Below are positions 41,551-46,768 of a stretch of 51,204 nucleotides of DNA, one piece after another. Origin of the DNA: Verrucomicrobiia bacterium (GTDB taxonomy: Bacteria; Verrucomicrobiota; Verrucomicrobiia; Limisphaerales; DASXHY01); NCBI GenBank assembly GCA_035629175.1, contig DASPIL010000095.1:1-51204 (forward strand). Reading direction: 5' to 3'. Position 1 is the stretch's first letter. Every line of letters begins with the position of its first letter. The notes under the pieces were generated by a model. The model was given only the letters and a program-made list of their open reading frames with translations, searched no databases and had not been told where the DNA came from. A program made the position numbers and the translations under genes.

Positions 41551-42606
41551 ATGTTCATCATCGGAATTGGAACTGCCGCCCCGCCAAATCGCTACTCGCA
41601 GATGCAATGCTGGGAGGCGCTTCAGTCGTCCATCCAGTTTCATCAGCTTGCCCCGCGTTCCCGCGCGATCCTTCGAAAGGTGCTCACGAACAACAATGGC
41701 ATTGCGACTCGCCACCTCGCCTTCGACAACCTTTCCGAAGCCTTCGATCTCACGCCCGACGCCCTCCACCAGCGCTTCATCAAGACCGCGCCCGCGATTG
41801 CGTCGCAGGCAGCCGAACGCGCCATGAAAGATGCGGCAACGGATCCGAAGGACATCGATGCGCTCCTGATCAGCACGTGCACGGGGTACCTCTGTCCCGG
41901 CCTTACCAGCTACGTCGGCGAGCGGCTCGGGCTGCGGCCCGATGTCTTCGGCCTCGATCTCGTTGGCCAAGGCTGCGGAGCTGCGCTGCCCAATTTTCGT
42001 TCAGCCGAGGCACTGCTCAAGTCAGGCCAGGCAAAGCGGGTCCTTTCCATCTGCGTGGAAGTCTGCAGCGCTGCGTTTTACCTGGATGACGACATCGGCG
42101 TGCTGATCAGCGCGTGTTTGTTTGGCGATGGCGCGGGCGCCGCGGTGCTGGCAAATGAACCTTCCACCAACCGCCGCGTGAAGTGGCGAACCAGCCGCTC
42201 GATGCTTCAACCCAACGACCGCGAGTTGCTCCGCTTCGAACAGCGCAATGGAATGTTGCGAAACATCCTCGCACCGCAAGTGCCGTCGATCGCAGCCGGG
42301 CACGTCGAAAATCTCTTCACCTCCACGCTGCGCGATCATGCGGTGTCGCCCTCGGAAGTTGCAGGCTGGGTGTTTCATCCAGGCGGACGCGATGTCCTGA
42401 CCGCGGTCCGTGATAAACTGAATCTGTCCGCCGATGACGTTCGCTGGAGCGAAGCCGTGCTGCGCGACTTCGGAAACATCAGCAGTCCGTCTGTTTACTT
42501 CGTCCTGCAAAATGCGCTTCAAGACAGCGTTCCTGACGGGCTGTGGTGGATGAGCTCGTTCGGAGCGGGGTTTAGTTGTCATGGCGCGTTGCTTGAGGTT
42601 GGGTAA
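41551..42606 (+). CDS. Type III polyketide synthase (chalcone/stilbene synthase family)
   Basis: A 351-residue thiolase-fold enzyme that extends an acyl-CoA starter with malonyl-CoA units and cyclises the chain, usually to pyrones or resorcinol/phloroglucinol-type aromatics. The catalytic triad is complete: C142 in GQGCGAALPNF, H276 in VFHPGGRD and N309 in FGNISSPSV. The C-terminal glycine loop (SSFGAGFSCHGALLEVG) is also present. Length is typical of bacterial members. It is the first of a tight set with a methyltransferase 12 bases downstream and an FAD oxidoreductase after that. The starter and product cannot be predicted. Confidence 0.94.
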   Translation: MFIIGIGTAAPPNRYSQMQCWEALQSSIQFHQLAPRSRAILRKVLTNNNGIATRHLAFDNLSEAFDLTPDALHQRFIKTAPAIASQAAERAMKDAATDPKDIDALLISTCTGYLCPGLTSYVGERLGLRPDVFGLDLVGQGCGAALPNFRSAEALLKSGQAKRVLSICVEVCSAAFYLDDDIGVLISACLFGDGAGAAVLANEPSTNRRVKWRTSRSMLQPNDRELLRFEQRNGMLRNILAPQVPSIAAGHVENLFTSTLRDHAVSPSEVAGWVFHPGGRDVLTAVRDKLNLSADDVRWSEAVLRDFGNISSPSVYFVLQNALQDSVPDGLWWMSSFGAGFSCHGALLEVG

Positions 42607-42617
42607 ACTCCACTGCA

Positions 42618-43316
42618 ATGAACCGAGTTGTTCAACCTGAGTTGCTCGACGTCCTGTCGCCGCAAGATCCCAAGGCCATCCGCTCGCGCGAGGACCTGCG
42701 CCGTCTGAATGCCGCCATGGGCCATGCGCGGCTGCTTGCCGACAGCCTCCAGGCGCAACTGGAAAAACCAAAAGCTGTCACGCTCGTGGAGTTGGGCGCC
42801 GGGGATGGCATCTGCCTTCTGCGCGTCGCACAACGGCTCGGGCGCCGCAACCCTGCTGCGCGCGTGGACGTCACGCTGGTTGACCTGCAGAACCTTCTGA
42901 CCGCTGAAACAGAACGGGATTTTGAGCGCCTCAACTGGCACGTGCGCGCTGTCCAATCGGATGTCTTCGATTTCCTGCAACGCGACCGTGATCGCAGCAA
43001 CCTGATGTTCGCCAATCTGTTCCTGCACCATTTCACCGACCTGCAACTCAAGGATCTTTTGCAACTGATCAGCGAACGGACGGATTTCTTTCTCGCCCTG
43101 GAAACGCGGCGTGCCCGATTCCCGCTGATTGCCGGCTGGATGGTCGGGTTGATCGGCTGCAATTCCGTCACGCGCCACGATGCGGTCGTCAGCGTCGAGG
43201 GGGGATTCGCCGCCAACGAACTGGGCCGTCTCTGGCCGCGCGGTCCCGGCTGGCAACTCGACGAACACTCTGCTGGATTGTTCAGCCATCGATTCGTCGC
43301 AAAACGGGGTGGATGA
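42618..43316 (+). CDS. SAM-dependent methyltransferase
   Basis: A 232-residue class I methyltransferase. Motif I is VTLVELGAGDGICLL (about 55-69), followed by DVTLVDLQNLL (motif II, acidic residue for the ribose) and NLMFANLFLHHF (post motif). A hydrophobic segment (FPLIAGWMVGLIGCNSV) follows the core. It probably methylates the carbon or oxygen of the polyketide made by the preceding gene, or an intermediate of it; this is inferred from the operon. The stop overlaps the next start (ATGA). Confidence 0.85.
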   Translation: MNRVVQPELLDVLSPQDPKAIRSREDLRRLNAAMGHARLLADSLQAQLEKPKAVTLVELGAGDGICLLRVAQRLGRRNPAARVDVTLVDLQNLLTAETERDFERLNWHVRAVQSDVFDFLQRDRDRSNLMFANLFLHHFTDLQLKDLLQLISERTDFFLALETRRARFPLIAGWMVGLIGCNSVTRHDAVVSVEGGFAANELGRLWPRGPGWQLDEHSAGLFSHRFVAKRGG

Positions 43317-44350
43317 TGCCGGGAGACGCGCCCATTACAATCATTGGGGGCGGACTCGCAGGACTCGCTCTCGGGATCGGATTGCGCCAGCACCAGGTCC
43401 CAGTGACCGTTCACGAAGCCGGCAGTTATCCACGCCACCGCGTTTGCGGGGAGTTCATCAACGGGAAAGGACTCCGTGTTCTTGAAAAGCTTGCCTTGCG
43501 TTCGCGCCTGGAACAAGCGGGCGCAATCATCGCGACGACGGTTCAATTCCGGAGCCAGAATGCCTCGTCACCCGTGCGGCAAATTCCTCCTGCCTTTTGC
43601 CTGTCGCGCTATCGCATGGACCACATCCTTGCCGAAACTTTTCAACAGCTCGGAGGCACGCTCCTGACAGGCCAGCGCGTTCCCCGCTCGCTTGCCGGCG
43701 GCGAGGTCCAGGCGTCGGGCCGTCGCGCGAGTCCCACCGCTGCAGGGTGGCGGTGGTTCGGGATCAAGGCGCACGCGCGGGGAATTCACCTGGATGCAGA
43801 TCTCGAAATGCATCTCTCAACCCGCGGATACATCGGGGTGAATCGCATCGATGCGGATTTGGTCAACGTGTGCGGGCTCTTCCGTGTGCGTCCAGGTGAA
43901 AGCCCGTCGGGCGCCCGACTCGACCTGTTGCGTCAAATGGCAGGAGCGTCGCTGAGGGCCAAACTCGAGCACGCACAGTTTGATGAACAGTCATGGTGTT
44001 CGGTCGCAGGCCTTTGTTTCCAATCGCACGCGCGCCCCGCGGACGAGCAACTCTGTCTCGGCGACGCGATGACAATGATTCCGCCAGTCACAGGAAATGG
44101 GATGTCGATGGCGTTCGAAAGCGCGGAGATTGCCATCGCGCCCCTGACGGCCTACTCGCGCGGCCAGTGCTCCTGGACCGAGGCCCGGCGAACGATTCAA
44201 CGTCAATGTGAGGCCGCATTCGTGACGAGATTGCGATGGGCGGCATTGCTTCAGGCGTTGATGTTTGCACCGCTGGTGCATTCCCGCCTGGGCGCGTTTC
44301 TGTTCAAGTCCGATTTTTTATGGAATACGATGCTTTCGAGAACTCGCTGA
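43313..44350 (+). CDS. FAD-dependent oxidoreductase (geranylgeranyl-reductase-like)
   Basis: A 345-residue flavoprotein. The N-terminal dinucleotide-binding motif is ITIIGGGLAGLALGIGL, followed by HRVCGEFINGKGL, similar to the R-x-K/R-x-CGE motif of the geranylgeranyl reductase and halogenase-like family, and the C-terminal FAD motif LCLGDAMTMIPPVTGNGM. It probably hydroxylates or otherwise oxidises or reduces the polyketide product, since it overlaps the methyltransferase gene by 4 bases. Monooxygenase and reductase activities cannot be told apart from sequence. Confidence 0.85.
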   Translation: MMPGDAPITIIGGGLAGLALGIGLRQHQVPVTVHEAGSYPRHRVCGEFINGKGLRVLEKLALRSRLEQAGAIIATTVQFRSQNASSPVRQIPPAFCLSRYRMDHILAETFQQLGGTLLTGQRVPRSLAGGEVQASGRRASPTAAGWRWFGIKAHARGIHLDADLEMHLSTRGYIGVNRIDADLVNVCGLFRVRPGESPSGARLDLLRQMAGASLRAKLEHAQFDEQSWCSVAGLCFQSHARPADEQLCLGDAMTMIPPVTGNGMSMAFESAEIAIAPLTAYSRGQCSWTEARRTIQRQCEAAFVTRLRWAALLQALMFAPLVHSRLGAFLFKSDFLWNTMLSRTR

Positions 44351-44395
44351 TCGGCGGAATCATTTTCAAACTCGAAGGCGATTCCATTATTCTCG

Positions 44396-45049
44396 ATGTC
44401 AATGAAACCGCTCGCTGAGTGCCGCCTTTACACATTCGTTGATACCAGCTGTTTGAACGGACGGAGTCCTGAATTGATTGCGCAACAATTGTGCGACGGC
44501 GGCGCCGACCTGATTCAACTGCGCGCCAAGGATGCTCCGCTGGATGATGTCCGCCGCATGGCGCAATCGATTCTTTCGATCACCCAGCGCAACGGCGTGG
44601 GCCTTGTGATCAACGATCATCCCGCTGTTGCAGTGGAACTGGGAGCGGAACTTTGCCATCTCGGCCAGGAGGATTTTTTCGATGCAGGGCGCACGCATGT
44701 TTCGGAACTGAAATCGGCGGGCGTGAATCTGCACATCGGCTTAAGCACGCATGAGCCCAGCCAGGCGAAACGCGCGATCGCTGCAGGGGCGGATTACATC
44801 GCCATCGGTCCCGTCTTTGCCACGCCCACCAAGCCGTATGCGACGGCTGTGACGCTCGATTACGTCGGCTGGGCGGCGGCCAATGTGACGATCCCCTGGT
44901 TCGCAATCGGAGGAATCAATCTTACGAATATAGACGCTGTGATTGCGGCAGGGGCCCGGCGCATCTGCGTCGTCTCCGCAATTTTAAACGCACCCGACGT
45001 TGCAGAAGCCTGCCGCGCCTTTCGCGAGCGCCTGTTCATCCGTGGTTAA
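44396..45049 (+). CDS. thiE: Thiamine-phosphate synthase
   Basis: A 217-residue TIM-barrel enzyme joining the pyrimidine and thiazole parts of thiamine. Family motifs are LIQLRAKDAPLDD (diphosphate/pyrimidine site), LVINDHPAVAVELGAELCHLGQED, IGLSTHEPSQAKRAIAAGADYIAIGPVFATPTK and WFAIGGINLTNIDAV. An ATG at 44402 is an equally possible start. No TPP riboswitch is visible in the 46-base gap after the oxidoreductase gene. Oddly, the last codons and stop (ctgttcatccgtggttaa, giving LFIRG) are part of the window-wide intergenic repeat, so the native C-terminus has been replaced or trimmed by repeat DNA. Confidence 0.93.
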   Translation: MSMKPLAECRLYTFVDTSCLNGRSPELIAQQLCDGGADLIQLRAKDAPLDDVRRMAQSILSITQRNGVGLVINDHPAVAVELGAELCHLGQEDFFDAGRTHVSELKSAGVNLHIGLSTHEPSQAKRAIAAGADYIAIGPVFATPTKPYATAVTLDYVGWAAANVTIPWFAIGGINLTNIDAVIAAGARRICVVSAILNAPDVAEACRAFRERLFIRG

Positions 45050-45868
45050 ACTTGGTCTGTAATTCGCGGCAATTAGCGTAAACGCCGTTTTGGTTCGATG
45101 TTGGCATTTCAGGCTTTAGCGTTTCACGCCTTCTGGCAGTGCGTGTTCATCTGTGTCCATTCGTGGTTCAATCCGAAATGCCTCACGCGGAGGTCGCAAA
45201 GGGCGCGAAGGAAAGAAAGGTTGAACAGGAGCACGCAGAGTCAGCAGAGATGGCAGAGAGAAGGCCGCGAAATTGGCGTAAGACAATTTTTGCCTTTTCG
45301 GAATCCGTACTGCTATCCCGCAACTTCTTGTTCTTTTGGCAACATTTTACGAGGCGCATGTTTATCCGTGGTTGGACGATCCGCTCAAACTCTTCGTCCT
45401 CTATCTCTGCGAGCTTCTGTTCAACGCCCCTGCAGCAAACGGCTTCACGCGAATCCCGCTAATTTCGCGGAGTGCTGCTAAAACGATTCATCGCATTCAG
45501 CCTTCGCATGCGCGGGGTTTCGTGTGGTTCGTGTGGTTCGTGGTTAAAATCGGATACGCCGAAACCTTGAACAGGAGCACGCAGAGATGACAGAGAAAAG
45601 GCAGACGACGCTGTTTCCGAATCCGTGTTTCTCCGTGTCCATCCGTGGTTAAGTTCCTCTCTTCAATTTCGTGAAATTCGCGTAGACCCGTTTTCCCATT
45701 CCGGCCGTTTTGGTTGCGGCTCTGGCGCGCTGTGTCCATCCGTGGTCAAAGGCTTTGGTTCTGTACGCGGTGCGCCGAAGTTTTTCGGCTTTCCGCGTTC
45801 ACCGGCTCCCTTTATGTTGCGCGCCATCCGTTTGAACCCTGAACTGCCAATCTGTTGTTGAACACTGC
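45050..45868. repeat. Long array of intergenic repeats
   Basis: This 819-base stretch has no convincing gene and is built almost wholly of repeats. Motifs: attcgcggcaattagcgtaaa (about 45060), tgtgtccattcgtggttcaa (about 45152), cacgcggaggtcgcaaaggg (about 45184), aacaggagcacgcagag (about 45225 and 45570), tttatccgtggtt (about 45360), ttcgtgtggttcgtggtta (about 45525), and gtccatccgtggttaagttc plus gtgaaattcgcgtagacccg (about 45638-45690). Frames of 60-130 codons crossing it translate these repeats into charged low-complexity text and were rejected. Confidence 0.75.
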
Positions 45869-46768
45869 ATGAGCGTTTTAATTGTCGGCTCCACCGCCCT
45901 GGATTCCATCAAAACTCCCAAAGCGGAAAACCCGCGCCTGCTCGGCGGCTCAGCCAGTCACGCCGCGGTCGCCGCGAGCTTCTTCAGCCCGGTCAAACTC
46001 GTAGGCGTCGTCGGCAAGGATTTTCCAAAGCGCTACATCGACCTCTACCGCCGCCACAAGATTGACATCGAAGGCCTGCAAATCCTGGAGGGAAATACGT
46101 TTCACTGGTCGGGCGAATACGAAGTGAACATGAACAATCGGCGCACCCTGCTCACCGAGCTCGGCGTGTTTGAAACGTTCACCCCGACGCTGCCGAAGTC
46201 CTACCAGAAATCGGAATTCGTGCTGCTGGCCAACATCGCCCCCGCACTGCAATCGCACGTGCTCACGCAGATGGAAAAACCCAGGTTCGTGGCCGCCGAT
46301 ACCATGGACCTCTGGCTCAACATCGCAATGCCGGACCTGCTCAAGCTGCTGAAGAAGGTCGATGGTTTCGTGCTGAACGATAGCGAAGCGCATCAGCTCA
46401 CGAAGGAAGACAACGTGTTCGGGGCCATCCGCAAAATTCACAAGCTCGGGCCGAAATACGTCATCATCAAGAAAGGCTCGCACGGTTCCGTGTTGTCGAG
46501 CCCGCGCGGCTTTTTCATCTGCCCCGCTTACCCGCTTCAGAAAGTGGTGGATCCCACGGGCGCCGGCGATTCGTTTGTCGGAGGCATGATGGGATACCTC
46601 GCAACTGCAAAGGGATCGATCGACGACAACATCCGCCGAGGCATGGTGTTCGGCAGTGTCACGGCATCGTTCTGCTGCGAAGGTTTCGGGCTCACGAAAA
46701 CGACGCACGTCACTCGCGCACAGATCAATCAGCGCGTGAAGGAACTCGAGAAGCTCGTGAAGTTCTGA
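45869..46768 (+). CDS. PfkB-family carbohydrate/nucleoside kinase
   Basis: A 299-residue ribokinase-fold sugar or nucleoside kinase. It opens MSVLIVGSTALDSIKTP, has the substrate-side motif LLGGSASHAAVAASFF, LNDSEAHQLT in the middle, and the C-terminal PfkB signature VVDPTGAGDSFVGGMMG with the catalytic aspartate and anion hole. Length is typical. The substrate is not evident; several family members of this type are adenosine or ribokinase-like. It follows a long repeat array and is convergent with the serine acetyltransferase gene 33 bases away. Confidence 0.92.
   Translation: MSVLIVGSTALDSIKTPKAENPRLLGGSASHAAVAASFFSPVKLVGVVGKDFPKRYIDLYRRHKIDIEGLQILEGNTFHWSGEYEVNMNNRRTLLTELGVFETFTPTLPKSYQKSEFVLLANIAPALQSHVLTQMEKPRFVAADTMDLWLNIAMPDLLKLLKKVDGFVLNDSEAHQLTKEDNVFGAIRKIHKLGPKYVIIKKGSHGSVLSSPRGFFICPAYPLQKVVDPTGAGDSFVGGMMGYLATAKGSIDDNIRRGMVFGSVTASFCCEGFGLTKTTHVTRAQINQRVKELEKLVKF

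Follow-up and report, generated by a model that had tools for sequence, protein, structure and literature searches.

A widely conserved gene trio for a type III polyketide synthase, a methyltransferase and a flavoenzyme in a Verrucomicrobiia bacterium, a probable phenolic lipid operon

The 51,204-nucleotide stretch of Verrucomicrobiia DNA analyzed here (contig DASPIL010000095.1 of assembly GCA_035629175.1; the window) carries side by side the genes for a type III polyketide synthase (PKS), a class I S-adenosylmethionine (SAM) methyltransferase (MT) and a flavin adenine dinucleotide (FAD)-dependent oxidoreductase. This trio is a real, widely conserved three-gene unit that occurs in dozens of mostly uncultured bacteria. 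By analogy with described operons, the three genes probably constitute one operon for a small methylated phenolic lipid of the alkylresorcinol/quinol (hierridin, polyketide-quinone) kind; from those described relatives we infer that the genes are transcribed as one operon, that the starter is a fatty acyl group and the product a resorcinol, and in which order the steps occur. The three genes are as follows.

41551..42606, + strand: type III PKS of 351 amino acids (aa), FGAGF-loop clade, catalytic Cys142/His276/Asn309 (Pfam, alignments, model).
42618..43316, + strand: class I SAM MT of 232 aa, a homolog of the MT in planctomycete-type operons (family and profile searches).
43313..44350, + strand: FAD-dependent oxidoreductase of 345 aa, probable aromatic hydroxylase, type A subfamily (family search, model).

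All four open reading frames (ORFs) of the initial annotation, the trio and the thiE gene behind it, were found at its coordinates on the + strand. The 4-base overlap (-4) between the MT and FAD genes was confirmed; the PKS-MT and FAD-thiE gaps were respectively 11 and 45 bases, not 12 and 46. The PKS scored 61.7, 54.2 and 49.9 bits against PF08392, PF00195 and PF02797, respectively, each with a curated Pfam cut-off of 27 bits. The FAD enzyme was over the PF01494 (FAD_binding_3) cut-off (35.4 vs 22 bits), and the MT was just above that of PF13649 (28.2 vs 27 bits). Other genomes carried full-length relatives of the PKS, MT and FAD enzyme in the same order, showing that these ORFs are not products of chance. 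The window's own genome held a single such FAD enzyme and a single such PKS, the sole further PKS match being weak (31% over 125 residues). When the window was scanned for signals, promoter-like sites numbered 0 (1.4 in shuffled sequence) and terminator-like sites 8 (7.1 in shuffled sequence).

The order-level search covered 58 genomes, the window's own included, and 20 of the loci found were examined with long flanks; their PKSs were 52-73% identical to the window PKS. One locus with a class-type PKS (L052) and the fragments L053-L056 were left out of the 20. The trio, whose lack of conservation the initial annotation had named as grounds for rejecting its proposal, retained the order PKS-MT-FAD on the same strand in 18 of these 20 loci. 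When named genomes were scanned with a 29-row alignment as query, 529 stretches passed a tblastn check (E ≤ 1e-3). In the best 80 of the 529, which are hence the closest relatives, 78 had an MT match and 75 an FAD enzyme match, in support of the minimal PKS-methyltransferase-flavoenzyme pathway that had been proposed as a unit. The median gaps in this set were 5 bases for PKS-MT (77 measured) and -4 for MT-FAD (51 measured), and gaps of no more than 60 bases were found in 70/77 and 49/51 of the measured cases, respectively. Verrucomicrobial names (Limisphaerales, Pedosphaera and others) predominate among the best 80, alongside Pseudomonadota and metagenome-assembled genomes (MAGs) of Nitrospirota; most of the 80 are MAGs, and some record names (e.g., Akkermansia muciniphila) look unreliable. 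Novimethylophilus kurashikiensis and Keguizhuia sedimenti, both Pseudomonadota, are apparently isolates. At least 7 of the 20 order-level loci come from genomes also in the 80-locus set, and the two counts are not independent.

A second arrangement was observed in the wider class. Forty class- and phylum-level loci were chosen from PF00195 matches, and 22 of them scored above 420 bits on a PKS profile for which 43 order- and class-level rows were used. The order MT-FAD-PKS was present in 19 of these 22 (the exceptions being L090, L113 and L114), and their enzymes were 36-47% (PKS), 36-44% (FAD) and 27-38% (MT) identical to those of the window. One genome of the order (G010) contained both a window-type and a class-type PKS, on contigs C49 and C4 (L033 and L052). 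No fourth family was common to most loci: thiE was found in 21/80 and the next free family in 13/81. An acyl-AMP ligase was considered as the fourth gene and rejected, as most of an apparent 33-locus cluster (42/47 ORFs) proved to be frames that overlap the trio or thiE, and a dedicated profile placed a ligase beside the trio in 2/80 loci only. At two loci (L134 and L149) a gene named from sequence alone as acyl-AMP ligase-like lies 3' of the trio.

The gene at 41551-42606 is a type III PKS as judged from sequence and a structural model, its catalytic function being predicted. C142, H276 and N309 were invariant in both PKS alignments (29 rows in A1 and 30 rows in A5, window included), and the first gatekeeper Phe was kept (F191). 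The second gatekeeper position was Asn238, invariant in A1 and A5; its neighbor Arg237 was invariant in A5 and not in A1. The C-terminal loop read FGAGF in 29/29 rows of A1 vs FGPG in 6/6 canonical rows (A2); rows of A5 were partly picked by the FGAGF motif and were excluded from the loop counts. The window PKS (FGAG) thus departs from GFGPG, a common loop signature of type III PKSs that is not regarded as defining. We take these gatekeepers to be equivalent to F215 and F265 of chalcone synthase (CHS). The second gatekeeper Phe is reported not to be conserved in cyanobacteria either (PMC8086630). An active site unlike that of plant enzymes, as initially annotated, was therefore borne out for Asn238 and the FGAG loop but not for the catalytic residues and F191, which are kept.

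The PKS model had a mean pLDDT of 89, and type III PKS matches spanned its whole length. The closest solved structure was Mycobacterium tuberculosis Pks11 (4jao, 4jat; Z 46.6-46.9, 27-28% identity), the top match reaching Z 46.9 at 1.9 Å over 345 residues. A FabH-like C-terminus (ACP_syn_III_C, 37.9 bits), the FGAGF loop, FabH-type profile scores of 77-91 bits and the annotation of the Caballeronia copy as a ketoacyl-ACP synthase III C-terminal domain protein would suit a different enzyme, a ketoacyl-acyl carrier protein (ACP) synthase III (KAS III, FabH-like) of primary lipid metabolism. However, type III PKS families scored higher, the structural matches were type III PKSs in 50/50 of those listed, and another, weakly matching protein of the genome could be FabH (G000:C19, E 4e-5). 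A PKS match at E ≤ 1e-40 was found in 82 of 236 genomes of the wider class, unlike the distribution of a housekeeping gene. We regard a KAS III as very improbable. In the PKS tree the window enzyme fell in a starred 32-row clade within a starred 55-row clade, which further contains 17 class-level enzymes and 6 from a third verrucomicrobial group; trees were made by a quick method and have long branches, with the long row L108 attached basally to the PKS clade.

When compared with profiles of planctomycete-type operons, the MT and the FAD enzyme gave E values of 2.9e-23 and 5.8e-43, respectively, with alignments covering most of the length of each; the second profile in the FAD comparison, of six rows, included two FAD enzymes from operons of the window's clade (Caballeronia and Novimethylophilus), which aids the match. 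The FAD model (pLDDT 85.5) shared its fold with flavin monooxygenases and halogenases, its structural matches including PltA (Z 31.7) and 3-hydroxybenzoate 6-hydroxylase (Z 29.3). A halogenase ranked top by fold and was rejected, as aromatic hydroxylases were close behind and WxWxIP, the motif of flavin-dependent halogenases, occurred in 0/24 (A3) and 0/26 (A6) rows; a different string, WxWxG[IL]K, was present in 8/24 and 12/26 of these rows. Type A enzymes conserve GxGxxG, CGEF and GD-type motifs, and the window enzyme is predicted to be a probable aromatic hydroxylase.

The FAD position in the best 80 loci was occupied by type A in 59 (≥200 bits on the type A profile) and by type B in 16 (30-200 bits), with none detected in 5. 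Type B comprised the Pseudomonadota- and Nitrospirota-named loci with a detected FAD enzyme and three loci of Verrucomicrobiota (L173, L181 and L193), whose PKS and MT stay close. In the FAD tree, type A and the class-level enzymes (starred 100) stood apart from type B (starred 95). By contrast, PKSs paired with either type shared one 32-row clade. The Novimethylophilus PKS and MT were 58 and 43% identical to those of the window, and its FAD enzyme only 27%. The simplest reading of these sequences is that the oxidoreductase was replaced inside a conserved pathway.

Comparison with known type III clusters indicated that the architecture is of a known kind and the window trio probably a diverged branch. 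Starter and product had been given as unknown in the initial annotation, and with hidABC, mtr-fdo-t3pks and pkqABC as known architectures the product class becomes guessable. The planctomycete mtr-fdo-t3pks operons, described for Gimesia maris and Rhodopirellula baltica (PMC10896814), hold the same three enzyme families as the window. As described there, pentadecyl- and heptadecylresorcinols were made by PKSs from these operons. When the planctomycete MT and FAD enzyme were co-expressed, the product carried a single methylation, and the part played by the FAD enzyme stayed open (PMC10896814). Planctomycetes are described as having the order MT-FAD-PKS, which is also the more conserved of the cyanobacterial arrangements; the other described order is hidC-hidA-hidB, i.e., PKS-MT-FAD (PMC10896814, PMC8086630). 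The planctomycete order is that of the window's class-level relatives, whereas the window itself has PKS-MT-FAD. The hidABC genes for hierridin B (Cyanobium and other cyanobacteria), compared by their description, encode a type III PKS, a methyltransferase and an oxidoreductase as in the window (PMC8086630). Homology and adjacency of all three genes with planctomycete-type operons were found by BLAST against Paludisphaera and with small profiles, the MT and FAD enzymes of Paludisphaera borealis and three other plasmid-borne operons being homologous to those of the window at the profile level. Because the MT and FAD enzyme align with those of these operons, the three genes all appear to derive from the same type of operon.

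In the proposed pathway, the PKS would load a fatty acyl starter out of fatty-acid synthesis (acyl-ACP or acyl-CoA), add malonyl units and cyclize the chain, which yields an alkylresorcinol-like ring. The methyltransferase would methylate this product (C or O), and the flavoenzyme would hydroxylate or oxidize the methylated product to a quinol or quinone. An acyl-ACP starter would fit the gene neighborhoods of two relatives. On a Caballeronia plasmid (L127 8001-12708), whose PKS is 53% identical to that of the window, an annotated ACP gene and a ketoacyl synthase gene lie 3' of the trio; in Keguizhuia (L188 5001-9597), the genes behind the trio are a 98-aa ORF and one for a ketoacyl synthase. 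On the Novosphingobium plasmid pLA3 (L130 61-5044), genes for a phosphopantetheine-binding protein, a ketoacyl synthase, a type III PKS and an FAD monooxygenase stand in a row, with a methyltransferase close by on the opposite strand.

A PKS with a short or malonyl starter, like DpgA, or with a pyrone end would give a small methylated phenol or pyrone, an outcome that is possible but rather unlikely. DpgA was the best NCBIfam profile for the PKS (164.5 bits, far under its cut-off of 425), Asn238 stands at the gatekeeper position, and Pks11, the best match in the Protein Data Bank, is described as an alkylpyrone enzyme. However, the DpgA profile gave 116-188 bits to 9/9 other type III PKSs, including 166 to the planctomycete-type enzyme; it is thus silent on the starter, and a DpgA-type starter was rejected on this ground. 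The ACP and ketoacyl synthase genes beside the two relatives point instead to acyl-ACP.

As a special case of the alkylresorcinol/quinol pathway, the product might be a respiratory polyketide quinone. The pkqABC/srsABC-type operons, compared by architecture alone, have a PKS, a methyltransferase and an oxidoreductase in the window's order, and their described route leads to a resorcinol and then, by methylation and oxidation, to a benzoquinone (PMC9927152). An actinobacterial operon of this make-up is reported to yield benzoquinone electron carriers, with polyketide quinone reported for Mycobacterium smegmatis pkqABC and a Streptomyces MNU77 homologue; the Streptomyces/Mycobacterium pathway is drawn with a methylmalonyl-CoA extender (PMC9927152). 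The agreement with the window in all three activities and in their order speaks for such a quinone. However, no electron-transport gene was prominent among the neighbors common to several loci, only some of which were identified, and the likeness to PkqABC is one of architecture; we hold this special case to be distinctly unlikely.

Several observations weigh against the phenolic lipid operon. The intact trio was absent from two of the 20 order-level loci: L049 had the PKS alone, and at L043 the MT lay 2.6 kb off behind an RCC1-like gene, with no FAD gene in the stretch. Among the best 80, the MT match was missing at L136 and L211 and the FAD match at L171, L180, L187, L206 and L211; L171 and L043 are the same genome. 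In the third group of seven loci (six in the PKS tree and L092 by similarity), four had an MT scoring 60-72 bits, and none had an FAD enzyme. The Paludisphaera enzymes were 29% (PKS, E 1e-35) and 22-23% (FAD, E 5e-11) identical to those of the window, and the MT comparison by BLAST was not significant (E 0.02). Members of planctomycete and cyanobacterial operons are reported to be 48-55% identical to one another (PMC10896814), a level far above these values, and for this reason we call the window trio a separate branch and not a member. The Paludisphaera PKS fell outside the window's deep clade, this being the one planctomycete compared (Gimesia and Rhodopirellula were compared by description), and a branch of 1.6 changes per column separated the 55-row clade from canonical PKSs (Paludisphaera, Deinococcus). 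Pks11 has an MGPGF loop where the window has FGAGF, and its description as an alkylpyrone enzyme counts here too. With a PKS identity of 29%, a long branch and a different gate and loop, the product class may not carry over. A literature search of limited depth found no published work on an enzyme of the window PKS clade.

A broader proposal, to which we give a low probability, is that this deep PKS clade with its own gate (Asn238, usually Arg237) and FGAG loop, spread over Verrucomicrobiota, Pseudomonadota and Nitrospirota, belongs to an operon making an unrecognized membrane quinone or quinol, with exchange of the FAD subfamily tuning its redox state. Were this true, many uncultured bacteria of soil and freshwater might have a second quinone pool. 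The pathway architecture is already known; what seems new is a large branch of it (the 529 stretches) under the names of three phyla. A first product from this branch would show whether the altered gate and loop change the starter or the cyclization.

Two further genes lie downstream of the trio.

44396..45049, + strand: thiE, thiamine phosphate synthase, a neighbor that seems to stand outside the pathway (TIGR00693).
45869..46768, + strand: pfkB-family sugar kinase, a frequent neighbor downstream of thiE, context and not pathway (family search, locus counts).

ThiE was over the TIGR00693 cut-off of NCBIfam (164.2 vs 145.1 bits), and pfkB started 819 bases 3' of thiE, followed by cysE and nadB. 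The thiE survey took 32 hand-chosen genomes of the 58; thiE was present in 32/32, and 30 matches were examined as loci with 1.5 kb flanks. A pfkB gene was within 1.5 kb in 19 of the 30 and an FAD gene in 6. Of the 18 thiE loci from PKS-bearing genomes, 6 were at the trio and 12 elsewhere, with pfkB beside thiE in 9 of the 12; in the 12 loci from genomes without a window-type PKS, pfkB was beside thiE in 6. From these counts, made without a dated tree, thiE-pfkB looks like an older pair that the trio adjoins in part of the family. Since pfkB is the commoner neighbor, including in genomes without a window-type PKS, thiE, a housekeeping gene, seems to be a bystander to the trio. The initial annotation had made thiE part of the cluster; this was likely a misreading and is corrected here, as thiE stands beside pfkB more often than beside the trio and was not found in the fetched stretch of 59/80 relatives, although some of these stretches stop at contig ends. 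A joint role of trio and thiE, e.g., in a route to thiamine or another cofactor, would fit the 45-base gap, the 21/80 relatives (and 5/20 order-level loci) with thiE 3' of the trio and the distance of 9-18 bases in 7/16 measured cases. However, the pairing of thiE with pfkB away from the trio and in genomes without such a PKS, together with the presence of thiE in every genome searched, makes this role extremely improbable. Co-transcription of thiE with the trio across the 45-base gap is possible in this genome. A riboswitch upstream of the trio or thiE was rejected, as no Rfam match reached the gathering score anywhere in the window.

The window region 3' of thiE (45028-45750) contains an interspersed repeat in several copies (GTGTCCATCCGTGGTT and variants) and an additional 36-nt repeat with CAGGAGCACGCAGAG. 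The 16-nt core of the interspersed repeat occurred 34 times in the genome at no more than one mismatch, vs 0 for the reversed control, and the thiE stop codon falls within one diverged copy of this repeat.

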